From the IMG/VR virus record IMGVR_UViG_3300037963_003409, positions 1 to 36,595 of that record: a stretch of DNA of 36,595 nt, one strand, 5' to 3'. Positions 3,921-11,222 of the stretch are shown piece by piece. Made by a program: the position numbers and the translations under genes. Each line of letters opens with the position of its first letter. Position 1 is the first letter of the stretch. Source of the stretch: a virus. Under the pieces are notes generated by a model. It did not search any database. It saw only the letters and a program-made list of their open reading frames with translations, and was not told the DNA's origin.

Positions 3921-4114
3921 ATGCACCAGCTACAATGAGACATCAGGGCTTATTCGCCATCAAGGAAGATGTTTTGCGCGAAATCCGCACCATGACCGAT
4001 GAGCAGTTTGAAGCGTGGCTTGCTGACTTTGAGACTGACCCGATCCGCAAGAACCACCTCAACCTTGGAACTGGCGGCGCGCACCCGTTCCGCCCGCGTC
4101 GTCGTGTCGCATAG
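3917..4114 (+). CDS. Small hypothetical protein (65 aa)
   Basis: A 65-residue protein. The helical middle (VLREIRTMTDEQFEAWLADF) is followed by a basic tail ending PFRPRRRVA. The ATG at 3917 overlaps the previous stop and follows AAAGGAG. No family is recognised. A 52-base gap follows before the next gene. Confidence 0.7.
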   Translation: MNAPATMRHQGLFAIKEDVLREIRTMTDEQFEAWLADFETDPIRKNHLNLGTGGAHPFRPRRRVA

Positions 4115-4166
4115 CATAAGCCCCGCGCTCGGTGGATAATGCAGGGAAAGAAACGGAGGAAGTTTG

Positions 4167-4370
4167 ATGGACTACGTAGAAGAAACCCGCCAGAAAATCC
4201 AAGGCCACATTGACCGCGCCAAGCACCTGCTTCGCGTTAAGCTCATTCCAGAGTGGCGCAACGAGCACCTGCCAGGGATGCGCCAATACCGCCGTATGCT
4301 TGTGCAAAAGGTCATCAAGGATATTCGCTATGACCGGCTGAACCTTGCGGATTGGGAGGCTATGGGGTGA
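4167..4370 (+). CDS. Small basic helical protein (67 aa)
   Basis: A 67-residue, mostly helical, basic protein beginning MDYVEETRQKIQGHIDRAK. The ATG at 4167 follows GGAGGA; an in-frame TTG at 4164 is less likely. The end overlaps the next start (TGATG). No recognised domain. The preceding gap contains GGTGGATAAT, one mismatch from a DnaA box, but as a single copy. Confidence 0.7.
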   Translation: MDYVEETRQKIQGHIDRAKHLLRVKLIPEWRNEHLPGMRQYRRMLVQKVIKDIRYDRLNLADWEAMG

Positions 4371-5874: not shown

Positions 5875-6248
5875 AACGCACCCCACTAAAGCGAGGCAAG
5901 CCGCTGCGCGCCAAAACTCGCATGAAGCAACGCAGCGACAAGCGCAAGGCATACCGCGCCAGTGACGAAGGCAAAGCGGCCACGGCATACTTACAGGCCG
6001 TCAAGCGCCTTCCCTGCGCTGTGTGTAGCGCTCCGCCACCGTCAGACGCACACCACGTCATTTGCGATAGGTTTGGTACGCGCAAGTCGAGCGATTGGGA
6101 CGCTATACCTCTGTGCAAGAAACACCACCAGGATGGACCGGAAGCCATACATAACGGAAAGGCAAGCTGGGTTGCGCTGCATGGGCCGGATTGGGAATAC
6201 ATCGATCAAACGCAATTGCAGATATTAGGAGAAGTGAGGGATGTTTGA
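5871..6248 (+). CDS. HNH/Ref-like nuclease
   Basis: A 125-residue protein with a very basic N-terminus (about 1-30). A zinc-bound HNH-like core follows: CAVC (49-52), AHH (60-62), and LCKKHH (81-86). The order CxxC, HH, IPLCxxHH resembles DUF968 and the P1 Ref family, RecA-dependent nucleases, and also NinG-like proteins. Substrate unknown. Position after ninB supports a role in recombination. It overlaps both neighbours. Confidence 0.75.
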   Translation: MKRTPLKRGKPLRAKTRMKQRSDKRKAYRASDEGKAATAYLQAVKRLPCAVCSAPPPSDAHHVICDRFGTRKSSDWDAIPLCKKHHQDGPEAIHNGKASWVALHGPDWEYIDQTQLQILGEVRDV

Positions 6249-6504
6249 CGCCAACGTTAGGAACAATCAAAGCATTTCGTTTAACTCAGTTGCTGGAACT
6301 ATTGTGAAAAGTTGCGAGGAAAGCAGATTTGTTCGCTTTCACATGAATTCCGAACTGGCTGAACGGATATTTTCGACGACTAAGCCGAAAATATCTTCTG
6401 ACTGGAATGCTCAGGAGATTGTTGTTTTGCAAGTAATGCTATGCGGAGGTGAGCAGTTTTTAGTTGAGTATATGTATAAAGACGACGCACCTGCGACAAA
6501 ATGA
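6241..6504 (+). CDS. Hypothetical protein (87 aa)
   Basis: An 87-residue protein of mixed strand/helix character, beginning MFDANVRNNQSISF. No motif is recognised. The ATG at 6241 overlaps the previous gene by 8 bases and follows GAGG. The last codons overlap a copy of the CTGCGACA motif (6491-6498). It is the last gene before the structured non-coding region. Confidence 0.65.
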   Translation: MFDANVRNNQSISFNSVAGTIVKSCEESRFVRFHMNSELAERIFSTTKPKISSDWNAQEIVVLQVMLCGGEQFLVEYMYKDDAPATK

Positions 6505-6538
6505 CCAATCCCCCCACCCCTACAGTGTGGGTTAGGGT
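6491..6538 (+). promoter_or_regulatory. Recurrent CTGCGACA motif, copy before the structured region
   Basis: CTGCGACA (6491-6498), a C-rich tract (CCCCCCACCCC) and GTGTGGGTTAGGGT (to 6538) closely parallel 4568-4617. Unlike other copies, no start codon lies about 70 bases on. Instead the sequence runs into two GC-rich hairpins and a terminator, so a short untranslated RNA may start here (inference). Confidence 0.4.
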
Positions 6539-6549
6539 GAATCTACACC

Positions 6550-6616
6550 GGCGGCACATCAGACTAGCCGCCACCCCGCGCCGCACTCTCCTCCCACATA
6601 GCGGCGCGGGGCTTTT
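6550..6616 (+). ncRNA. Tandem GC-rich hairpins ending in an intrinsic terminator; candidate small RNA or attenuator
   Basis: Hairpin 1: GGCGGC (6550-6555) pairs with GCCGCC (6567-6572). Hairpin 2: CCCCGCGCCGC (6574-6584) pairs perfectly over 11 bases with GCGGCGCGGGG (6601-6611), followed by CTTTTG. Its 16-base loop contains CTCTCCTCCC, complementary to GGGAGGAGAG and therefore to the AGGAGAG ribosome sites common in this phage. No gene covers it. The terminator call is firm; a discrete regulatory RNA is inference. Confidence 0.55.
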
Positions 6617-6757
6617 GAAAACAAGGGAATGAGCGCAAACGAAAGGAGTCCTTGGGTGTCGCTCAAGGTTGGGCTTCCCCCAGGAACAGACAGAGCCGCG
6701 CCAAATGGCAATGTCGCACCGCCCTTGTTTTCTAAGGCCCATTACAGGAGAGAGAGT
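6617..6757 (+). promoter_or_regulatory. Structured 5' leader with an 11-bp closing stem
   Basis: GAAAACAAGGG (6617-6627) is an exact reverse complement of CCCTTGTTTTC (6722-6732). The 94 bases enclosed can fold CCTTGGG/CTCAAGG (6650-6656 with 6662-6668; one G-U pair), TGGG/CCCA (6670-6673 with 6679-6682) and GCC/GGC (6700-6702 with 6707-6709). The closing stem ends shortly before the AGGAGAGAGAG site of the next gene. This looks like a multibranch cis-acting RNA. A coding alternative is an in-frame ATG at 6629, with a poor ribosome site. Confidence 0.45.
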
Positions 6758-6943
6758 ATGATTGGTGAAAGAATAGAGATTCCATCAGGTGGAGCGTATT
6801 TTTACGCCAGCAATGTGAAATTTCACATAAGCATTGACGGCGAAAGAATTATCATCAGGTGCGTAGAAACTCCAGATGCGCGAGGTGAAAGATTGTTCAC
6901 TCACCAACCCGCTGGAAATGTAATTTTTTTGGAAGCGCAATAG
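6758..6943 (+). CDS. Hypothetical protein (61 aa)
   Basis: A 61-residue protein, probably beta-rich, beginning MIGERIEIPSGGAYFYASN. The ATG at 6758 follows an excellent AGGAGAGAGAG site. The frame stays open back to 6629, where a segment loosely resembles the start of DUF551 proteins (SPWVSLKVGLPPG), so a 104-residue form is possible. I prefer the shorter form because of the ribosome site and the RNA structure upstream. No function recognised. Confidence 0.6.
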   Translation: MIGERIEIPSGGAYFYASNVKFHISIDGERIIIRCVETPDARGERLFTHQPAGNVIFLEAQ

Positions 6944-6954
6944 GAGCCAGGGGC

Positions 6955-7128
6955 ATGACCGATACACCACCAATCAAAATCGCAACCATCAAGATTGGCG
7001 CTTATGCTTCTGTGCAGGGGCCAGTTAAGGAAACGCTACCCTGCGGCCAAGTACGCATTCGGGTAGGGAAGCAGACATATACGGGTAAGCCGGTAGCCGC
7101 CGCAATTCGCGCCAGGGAGGGTGAGTGA
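6955..7128 (+). CDS. Small hypothetical protein (57 aa)
   Basis: A 57-residue basic protein beginning MTDTPPIKIATIKIG with a beta-rich middle (QVRIRVGKQTYTG) and a helical end. The ATG at 6955 follows AGGAGCCAGGGG. The stop is immediately followed by the ATG of the next gene. No family recognised. Confidence 0.6.
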   Translation: MTDTPPIKIATIKIGAYASVQGPVKETLPCGQVRIRVGKQTYTGKPVAAAIRAREGE

Positions 7129-7332
7129 ATGGAAGCCTTGACATATATTATAAAGCTTATCGCCATTCTCGTATGGGACACGCTTGCATTTTTTATGCTG
7201 TATTTGGTCACATATGGCTTGGCGGTTGCTTATTTGGAAGCGTCATCCTCAATAAACGTAGCTTGGATTGGCGTAGCGGTTGGGGTGTCAACTTGCATTA
7301 AGGCTGATTTGTGCAAATGGTATGAGGAGTGA
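7129..7332 (+). CDS. Small membrane protein with two spans
   Basis: A 67-residue protein with two hydrophobic segments (about residues 5-35, possibly one long or two short spans, and 42-57) and a charged C-terminus (KADLCKWYEE). It abuts the preceding stop (TGAATG), with a GGGAGGGTGAG site before it. It is the last rightward gene. Function unknown; it is not part of the lysis cassette, which lies on the other strand. Confidence 0.65.
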   Translation: MEALTYIIKLIAILVWDTLAFFMLYLVTYGLAVAYLEASSSINVAWIGVAVGVSTCIKADLCKWYEE

Positions 7333-7350: not shown

Positions 7351-7596
7351 CTATGCATCGTCATCAGTATTAGTCAGAGCCTGGGCGCATTCACGGTCCC
7401 ATGTCAGGTTGGTGCGGTAGTCGCGCGCAAGGTTCCATGGGGCGTTAGCAGAGCGCCAGTCAATCTCAGCTTGGGAAAATTTGCGCGGCTCTTCAACGTC
7501 GCAAAAAAGCGCTTCCTCAATTACCGGTTTCGGCTCCGTCTGGCCGCAGCCAATGAGGGGGAACGTCAAAATCGTTAGGGTCATTAACAGTCGCAT
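7351..7596 (-). CDS. Outer-membrane spanin, Rz1-like lipoprotein
   Basis: An 81-residue protein with a signal peptide ending in a lipobox, LIGC, with Cys17 as the predicted lipidated residue. The mature part is acidic and proline-bearing. It starts inside the i-spanin gene in another frame (80-base overlap), the classic Rz/Rz1 arrangement. o-Spanins join i-spanins across the periplasm to fuse the two membranes in the last step of lysis of a Gram-negative host. It is the last gene of the late operon. Confidence 0.85.
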   Translation of the reverse strand: MRLLMTLTILTFPLIGCGQTEPKPVIEEALFCDVEEPRKFSQAEIDWRSANAPWNLARDYRTNLTWDRECAQALTNTDDDA

Positions 7597-9299: not shown

Positions 9300-11222
9300 T
9301 CAGGTTACTTCTGCGGATGTTGTCCAAGAAACAGTTTCAGCAACTGCAATTGGTGTGCCAGATGCGTCACTAAGCTGAATTGTCATGTTGCTAGACGTAA
9401 CAGCAGACACTGCCACAATCCGATTTGCGACAGTAGGCGTCACAGTGTAGGACGTGGGGGTAACTCCCATAAAGTGCGAGATTATTCCGCCATCTGCAAC
9501 GGATGCTGTGCCAGCATTCCGCGTTCTGCGGCCAATGTTCCCATTGACAAGAGACCCAGAACCAACACCCGTGACGTTCATTTGTCCTGACCCATTCCCG
9601 CGACAAATGTTGTCTGATATAATGGTTCTCTCTGGACTGTCCGACACTTGAATTCCGAAGCTGTTGTTGTCAATGCAAATATTGCCTGTGCAAACAATTT
9701 CAGATGTCTCTGTTGTTCCAGTCCCGTCAATTATCAAAATGCCGTGTGAAGAAACGCTATTAGCACAAGTGTTGGCTGTGATCACGGTGTCTGTGCACCC
9801 GCGAATGTTTATATTCGCATCTTCCGACGCATCAACAGCATTTCCTGTAATCGTAATGCCATCGCTGTTTTCGACGAGAATCCCGCTTTCGTTTGAGGTA
9901 GTACCACCTGCACTTACGGCAGTTATAGAGTTTCCAGTGACTGCGCCATGCATACTCCTAAACGAAGCTCCTAGAGTTTCCCCCAAAACAGCAATCCCAG
10001 CATTCACCGTGTTTGAAACTTCATTTCCAGATATGGAAAAATGGTGGCAATTCTCCACAATAATGCCTTCTCCGTTGGTGTCTGTCTCAGCGGTGTCAAT
10101 TGTATTTCCAGAAACTGAAACATGGCTGCACACAGATGTGCCGGAATTGTTTGGCCAATTCCTAACAAAAACTGAAGAGTTCGTGGTGTCCTTAAACGTG
10201 TTGCCATTGATGGTGATGTAATCACCGCCCGCGTGAATCCCATGATTATTGGCGTCCTCAATAACGTTGCCCTCAAATAAAACATGCCGGTTGTTTGGGC
10301 TGTATCCGCCGATCCCCCCCGCCGTTCCATTCAATCCAGTGCGCCTAACAACGTTCCCAGATATACGGAAGTGCGAGACCCCAGCAGAGGGCGTAGACAC
10401 GCTACCAGAAATTAGAGTAATGGCAACTTCTCCAGTGTCCTCAATGATATTACCGGATAAACTACAATGACTGCTTATATTTGATGCGTGATATTCATGT
10501 CTTACGCCGTTCCCGTCAGCGTCGTGTATCTTGTTGTCAGTTACATCACATTGCTCCGCCCCTGCCACAATTGAAACCCCAGTGCCAGAAGTATCGAAAA
10601 TTTCACAATTCCTAACCGAGTTCCTTACTCCATTCAAAGAAATGGCGTCCATGTCTTGCGTTTGGCTCAATTTATTTCCATCGATAAACACCCGATCAAG
10701 CGACGCGCCAGAAACAGAAGAGCTAAAGCCTATGCAAAATTCACCACTAGATGACGCAACTGCGGATTTGAGGCGCAAATCTGTAAGCAAAACGTTGCTT
10801 TTCATTTCAACATTTTTACAGAGAAATACTCCCGATTGACTTGATATGGTGCCTCCACCTAAACTTGAAACGTAGTCAATGGTGGCTTGCAATGATGTTG
10901 TATCATCCGAAACGCCATCACCAATCGCACCAAAGTCATATGGATTTTTTGGCATGGTGTCCGCATTTACAATATCAATAGGAAATATTTGTGGACTCGC
11001 CCCCGCTCCAAGGGATACAGAATATGCTCCCGATGCAGTGTAAAACTCAAAATCCCCGTTTGCCGCCGCATTAAACGGGTTCGCAATCGGGGTGGTTGCG
11101 TCTTTGTCTGAGTAGAGGGTTGCAAGGGAATTATCACTTTGCAGCCTCACCTCAACAGAGGTTGCGCCTAGCGTGTTGCCAGACCCATCAACGGCGGTTG
11201 CCTTAAATCCAGGAAGTGCCAT
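9300..11222 (-). CDS. Tailspike / receptor-binding protein with right-handed beta-helix
   Basis: A 640-residue protein. Residues 1-90 form a short beta-rich domain likely to bind the tail. From about 93, YDFGAIGDGVSDDTTSLQAT is the start of the pectate-lyase-3 superfamily. A long series of repeats such as ISGNVV, VSGNTI and ITGNAV gives the beta-helix coils. The last 80 residues form a separate C-terminal domain. Such proteins recognise and often cut surface polysaccharide. Catalytic residues cannot be read from sequence alone. It is the last structural gene, with a one-base overlap with the gene before it. Confidence 0.87.
   Translation of the reverse strand: MALPGFKATAVDGSGNTLGATSVEVRLQSDNSLATLYSDKDATTPIANPFNAAANGDFEFYTASGAYSVSLGAGASPQIFPIDIVNADTMPKNPYDFGAIGDGVSDDTTSLQATIDYVSSLGGGTISSQSGVFLCKNVEMKSNVLLTDLRLKSAVASSSGEFCIGFSSSVSGASLDRVFIDGNKLSQTQDMDAISLNGVRNSVRNCEIFDTSGTGVSIVAGAEQCDVTDNKIHDADGNGVRHEYHASNISSHCSLSGNIIEDTGEVAITLISGSVSTPSAGVSHFRISGNVVRRTGLNGTAGGIGGYSPNNRHVLFEGNVIEDANNHGIHAGGDYITINGNTFKDTTNSSVFVRNWPNNSGTSVCSHVSVSGNTIDTAETDTNGEGIIVENCHHFSISGNEVSNTVNAGIAVLGETLGASFRSMHGAVTGNSITAVSAGGTTSNESGILVENSDGITITGNAVDASEDANINIRGCTDTVITANTCANSVSSHGILIIDGTGTTETSEIVCTGNICIDNNSFGIQVSDSPERTIISDNICRGNGSGQMNVTGVGSGSLVNGNIGRRTRNAGTASVADGGIISHFMGVTPTSYTVTPTVANRIVAVSAVTSSNMTIQLSDASGTPIAVAETVSWTTSAEVT

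Follow-up and report, generated by a model that had tools for sequence, protein, structure and literature searches.

Organization of the locus

The DNA examined was the IMG/VR virus record IMGVR_UViG_3300037963_003409, all 36,595 bases of which are referred to here as the window. Rightward early-type genes (exonuclease, NinB-like, HNH) extend to about 7.3 kb, whereas the lysis, tail, head, and terminase genes point leftward and fill the stretch from about 28.9 kb down to 7.35 kb. More leftward genes (replication initiation, endonuclease, pyrophosphatase) occupy 29 to 36.6 kb. The RNA module considered here is situated toward the end of the rightward early group, between an 87-aa and a 61-aa gene (Table 1). 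A search for tRNA and tmRNA genes found none.

TABLE 1 Features of the module and its surroundings, in window coordinates. L002 is the related viral record described in the text; SD, Shine-Dalgarno; aSD, anti-Shine-Dalgarno
Feature	Position	Strand	Remarks
87-aa gene	6241..6504	+	Upstream of the module; nearly identical in L002
Conserved module	6545..6735 (191 bp)	+	95.8% identity in L002 (BLASTN/alignment); flanks differ on both sides
Hairpin 1	6550..6572	+	6-bp stem, GGCGGC (6550-6555)/GCCGCC (6567-6572); loop ACAUCAGACUA; identical in L002
Hairpin 2	6574..6611	+	11-bp perfect GC-rich stem, CCCCGCGCCGC (6574-6584)/GCGGCGCGGGG (6601-6611)
Hairpin 2 loop	6585..6600	+	16 nt, ACUCUCCUCCCACAUA
CUCUCCU	6586..6592	+	Complementary at all 7 nt to AGGAGAG, the commonest early SD of the phage
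aSD motif in hairpin 2 loop	6588-6595	+	CUCCUCCC; 8 of 9 letters of the ar14/cuckoo motif CCUCCUCCC
Hairpin 2 tail	6612..6616	+	CUUUU (continuing CUUUUG); weak intrinsic-terminator-like U tract
Long-range stem	6609..6740	+	19-nt arms at 6609-6627 and 6722-6740; 11-bp perfect core, with pairing resumed beyond a U.U mismatch
3' domain interior	6628..6721	+	Predicted small hairpins
SD-like AAAGGAG (6642-6648) and GTG (6656-6658)	6642..6658	+	L002 has ATG in place of GTG; may start a small ORF, the frame of which is not conserved
AGGAGAG Shine-Dalgarno	6746-6752	+	Precedes ATG 6758; complementary to hairpin 2 loop
61-aa gene	6758..6943	+	Downstream of the module; absent from L002; codon usage examined

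An initial annotation, made from the sequence alone, had described this stretch as two GC-rich hairpins in tandem followed by an inverted repeat that encloses smaller hairpins and ends just before a ribosome site. The tandem hairpins are indeed present. The predicted fold of 6545-6616, which spans both, had an energy of −38.4 kcal/mol (z = −6.6) that none of 200 dinucleotide shuffles equaled, and hairpin 2 alone (6573-6613) gave a z of −5.7 against shuffles. Folding of the whole region from 6490 to 6760, which had been suggested as a check, gave z = −3.1, with 1 of 200 shuffles equal. The 11-bp stem is perfect, as claimed. The "terminator tail" attributed to it has only four U residues, versus the U-rich tract of about 5 to 8 expected of an intrinsic terminator. 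Our simple terminator scan was limited to loops of 8 nt or less and so did not list hairpin 2, with its 16-nt loop. Elsewhere in the window, a second perfect 11-bp hairpin (CCATGTTCTGC/GCAGAACATGG) followed by TTTT lies on the plus strand at 458-490, within the frame of ORF 186-554.

The 11-bp perfect inverted repeat (6617-6627 with 6722-6732) was also confirmed, and proved to be part of a longer pair of 19-nt arms. Among inverted repeats confined to 150 nt, this pair scored highest in the entire window, and 5 of 200 window shuffles reached its score. The ribosome site lies just beyond it. The outer part of this long-range stem overlaps the U tract and the final three bases of the 3' arm of hairpin 2. 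Those three are the only hairpin bases common to both structures, which coexist in the minimum-energy fold, and a strict terminator/antiterminator switch is therefore unsupported. The small hairpins enclosed by the stem are predicted, as described, and are weaker than the other elements: the segment 6616-6734 had an energy of −44.1 kcal/mol (z = −2.5, 3 of 200 shuffles equal), a value that includes the 11-bp closing stem. Structure inside the 3' domain is thus only moderate.

The module is conserved in a relative with different flanks

The sole relative that we found was the 51-kb record IMGVR_UViG_3300034788_000438 (L002). There, the shared upstream gene is separated from the module by a gene for 113 aa and by a simple-sequence repeat, and the downstream flank lacks gene 6758. 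The repeat, a degenerate TCGTGG/TCGCGG/TCGCTG array at L002 positions 4060-4217 (frame WSRSRSWSLS...), adjoins the module directly on its 5' side. Because the block is kept in L002 while its flanking sequence differs, it behaves as one unit, hairpins and 3' domain together.

Eight differences separate the two copies: one at 6599 in the hairpin 2 loop, a group at 6649-6656, the deletion of 1 nt together with a change at 6665-6666, and one at 6716. In L002 a predicted inner hairpin loses two of its pairs, and the block holds no compensatory pair, in a comparison confined to two near-identical sequences. The extension of the long-range stem just outside the block is roughly kept, with a score of 13.3 in L002 versus 15.3 in the window.

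The initial annotation had found no convincing gene here and had named, beforehand, a conserved protein frame from 6629 as one of the observations that would count against its reading. The deletion at 6665 puts that frame out of register in L002, so no protein frame is conserved at 6629, and the comparison as a whole argues against a protein and for a noncoding block. A minus-strand ORF at 6380-6742 was rejected, its frame being lost across the same indel. We also considered a mobile element and discarded the idea, having seen no terminal repeats at the block ends and no second copy in the window.

Wider searches returned nothing further. DNA comparisons with phages and plasmids gave short chance matches only, and exact 19-mers and the exact inverted-repeat pattern, sought across IMG/VR, occurred in the L002 contig alone. 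One 19-mer match, in Pseudomonas sp. GM80, was dismissed as chance, the surrounding sequence being without similarity. Protein 6758 led to no related viral loci, and among 80 viral loci found by way of the amidase, only the L002 contig held the module.

The loop of hairpin 2 resembles the anti-Shine-Dalgarno loops of alphaproteobacterial sRNAs

Hairpin 2 presents CUCUCCUCCC in its loop, and both the predicted fold and a scan for motif-bearing hairpins place this aSD sequence exposed in the loop of a stable hairpin. When the whole window was shuffled with dinucleotides preserved, only 2 of 300 versions contained a hairpin of at least 11 bp with no more than one mismatch to CCUCCUCCC in its loop. 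Pairing of the loop with the phage's translation starts also exceeded that of shuffled loops, 2 of 300 of which were equal. Across IMG/VR, the pattern CGCCGC-aSD-GCGGCG was found in 65 stretches versus 24 for a scrambled loop, a rough contrast because many of both lay in coding sequence; by our own count, stems of at least 9 bp numbered about 14 among the aSD matches and 2 among the scrambled ones.

Such loops are known from sRNAs of the alphaproteobacteria. The ar14 sRNAs carry the aSD motif CCUCCUCCC in hairpin loops (PMC10746234, PMC3927594), and one of them, NfeR1, has three hairpins with the motif unpaired in each and uses these loops to silence ntrB, repressing at translation starts (PMC10746234). 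Cuckoo/CcsR-like aSD sRNAs consist of tandem stem-loops with the motif (PMC3927594) and are associated with the gene for a DUF1127 protein at the CIN1 locus (PMC10253847).

The region gave no Rfam match at the gathering threshold. Its best subthreshold match was ar14 (RF02344), aligned on hairpin 2 with 18.7 bits against a gathering score of 58.8 (E = 0.17). Other permissive matches (F6, CC1840, ErsA, and others, with E values of 0.49 or more) were set aside as GC-hairpin look-alikes. Covariance models discriminate poorly for such families, in which stems diverge and loops stay (PMC3927594), so the low ar14 score is not decisive. Membership in ar14 nevertheless fails, and the decisive point, more than the score, is that the loop of hairpin 1, ACAUCAGACUA, lacks the aSD motif. 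The module thus has one aSD hairpin, with 8 of 9 motif letters, where ar14 has three; likewise, the motif occurs in only one of its two tandem hairpins, unlike the tandem stem-loops of the cuckoo/CcsR-like RNAs, and the neighboring genes scanned against Pfam gave no DUF1127 match. What it shares with ar14/NfeR1 is a GC-rich hairpin, CUCCUCCC in the loop, and a 3' U tail; it differs further in its early-operon site and its large 3' domain.

These results bear on what the initial annotation had proposed. Its remark that no known class could be recognized stands as far as Rfam gathering-level matches go, but it overlooked the likeness of the aSD hairpin to ar14/cuckoo. The "riboswitch-like leader" finds no support, given the lack of an Rfam match at the gathering threshold and the absence of downstream gene 6758 from L002. 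An "attenuator" or a "small RNA followed by a cis-element" would both be compatible with a noncoding, structured block conserved as a unit.

Two further systems invite comparison. The ar8/SisA-D sRNAs use an anti-SD signature for repression, and the Caulobacter sponge CrfA has a G/A-rich loop complementary to the aSD sRNA signature (PMC12559287), comparable to the minus strand of our module; the ar8 motif, UUUCCUCCCU, by contrast lies in a single-stranded stretch rather than in the loop of a terminator hairpin, and the ar8 genes are chromosomal. The c4 RNA of phages P1 and P7 has loops believed to block translation by pairing around one of the phage's own ribosome-binding sites (reviewed in PMC12197685). 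By analogy, both it and the module would be phage-encoded regulatory RNAs acting, in principle, at ribosome-binding sites. Whereas c4 has one target (ant) and pairs specifically, the 7-nt SD complement of the module would serve many early genes. On our best reading, the module may work like the ar14/cuckoo RNAs or the P1 c4 RNA without belonging to ar14.

AGGAGAG sites mostly precede early genes

The 3' end of alphaproteobacterial 16S rRNA pairs with AGGAG and should not pair with a following AG. AGGAGAG is the commonest AGGAGNN form in the window (13), and 11 of the 12 sites outside the hairpin lie 4 to 8 nt before a start codon. Ten of these 11 are in early regions and one is in the tail region, a contrast weakened by early genes being shorter and more numerous per kilobase (roughly P ~0.03 by gene number, our own estimate). 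L002 has 8 AGGAGAG-N3-11-ATG sites versus none for the reversed pattern. All 8 fall at 14.7 to 28.4 kb, a part syntenic with the early regions of the window, whereas the 26 other AGGAG-ATG matches in L002 are scattered along the full 51 kb. In 79 amidase-related viral loci other forms are preferred, AGGAGAG accounting for 85 of 969 AGGAGNN sites.

The hairpin 2 loop fits all seven bases of AGGAGAG, which is the strongest hint of function that we have, still a correlative one. Given an aSD core, the chance of the two flanking bases also fitting "AG" is about 1 in 16, and a pyrimidine-rich loop pairs with any SD. At most of the sites pairing would end at 7 bp, the next base being A where the loop also offers A.

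A candidate aSD riboregulator and its alternatives

We favor, tentatively and with less than even confidence, the reading that the module is an aSD riboregulator encoded by the phage, which sits distally in the early operon, doubles as a leaky terminator, and carries a structured 3' domain. From the observed anatomy, conservation, complementarity, and AGGAGAG distribution, we infer that early plus-strand transcription would reach hairpin 2 and, with only U4 behind the stem, terminate there in part, and that the resulting stable RNA 3' end would expose the aSD loop. Once enough of this RNA had accumulated, it could pair with the AGGAGAG of early mRNAs, that of gene 6758 included, and lower their translation, which would help early expression give way to late. 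The 3' domain would form on transcripts that read through; its closing stem takes in the U tract and the final three bases of hairpin 2, so this domain may adjust how efficiently termination occurs or how stable the RNA is. We identified no promoter for the module.

An unlikely extension, which we offer as speculation, is a genome-wide, code-matching switch in which one aSD RNA would silence the AGGAGAG early genes as a set and spare late genes with other SDs; the last two bases of AGGAGAG, unneeded for 16S pairing, would be those that fit the phage hairpin. Anti-SD sRNAs are a characteristic alphaproteobacterial route of translational repression, and a limited literature search found no phage-encoded aSD RNA of this type. 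If the loop truly acts on AGGAGAG, it would offer the phage a simple RNA route for early-to-late control, with an SD variant as the address label.

The main rival, a serious contender that we find somewhat doubtful, is a plain intrinsic terminator or attenuator, in which hairpins 1 and 2 plus U4 would stop part of the early transcription short of the small genes at 6758-7332 and the pyrimidine-rich loop would be incidental. In its favor, the GC-rich 11-bp stem is followed by UUUU, the hairpin at 458-490 likewise has an 11-bp stem and TTTT, and the scan, with its short loops, listed no better terminator-like site on the plus strand between 5800 and 7500. A terminator leaves unexplained the 16-nt aSD loop, a rarity in window shuffles (2 of 300), the match of that loop to the phage's own early SD, and the conservation of the 3' domain along with the hairpins; its U tract is also short.

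A cis-acting leader of gene 6758 strikes us as improbable. In this view, hairpin 2 and the competing long-range stem would act as a terminator/antiterminator-like pair, or else AGGAGAG at 6746-6752 would be masked by the aSD loop. The overlap of the stem with the 3' arm and U tract, the complementarity of the loop to this SD, and the rough retention of the stem extension in L002 all fit, but L002 keeps the module without the gene, the two stems share three bases and coexist, and no ligand-binding or Rfam class was found.

We think it very improbable that the module acts from the opposite strand, as a sponge modeled on CrfA. A leftward read-through RNA would show GGGAGGAG in hairpin 2 and sequester host aSD sRNAs (ar8/ar14/cuckoo); the minus-strand loop, UAUGUGGGAGGAGAGU, does complement 8 of 9 letters of CCUCCUCCC, and the leftward late genes end near 7351. 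This would, however, require about 750 bp of read-through from the late operon, the sole U tail is on the plus strand, the minus-strand loop would equally be an SD, and no minus-strand promoter or transcript is known.

Least of all do we credit a small protein encoded in the 3' part, from ATG 6629 or from GTG 6656 behind AAAGGAG: this SD-like sequence is kept in both phages with a GTG or ATG start, and four differences cluster between the two elements at 6649-6656, but the indel gives the two phages different proteins, codon usage gives an ambiguous signal for the 6629 frame (coding pieces score as low in about 9% of cases, and noncoding pieces as high in 6%), and there is no Pfam or PHROG match.

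Anti-SD hairpins in other viral contigs

One or two aSD hairpins with CUCCUCCC loops were found in six other viral contigs, L090 (7693-7771), L119 (3323-3404), and L121 (7543-7616) and, on the minus strand, L125 (locus about 928-1001), L089 (hairpin 7127-7153), and L094 (about 9696-9760). All of these except L089 have two in tandem. In L089, L090, L119, and L125, the hairpins immediately precede a short early-type gene, in most cases with a repressor-like helix-turn-helix gene close by, and those of L125 come after a TTGACA-like sequence and a palindromic, operator-like sequence. None reached an Rfam gathering score, and their MAFFT alignment with the hairpin of the window was poor, so no covariance model was built from them. 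They look like a recurring leader RNA of phages or prophages, probably alphaproteobacterial ones. The short proteins encoded after the tandem hairpins of L090 (from 7798, MKAESTNVTAADRADRALMVKLFQERGPQTDKQLLAAGISFESQAKN...) and L119 (from 3437, MKTKSEITAADRRDRSIMLRLYQDRGPQTEKTLLAAGISLESQARN...) are similar to each other and have no Pfam match. Separately, the scrambled-loop control brought up a terminator-like hairpin common to four viral contigs, L157, L158, L160, and L165, CGCCGC-CGCCCTTCCCCC-GGCGGCG with a T6-T7 tail.
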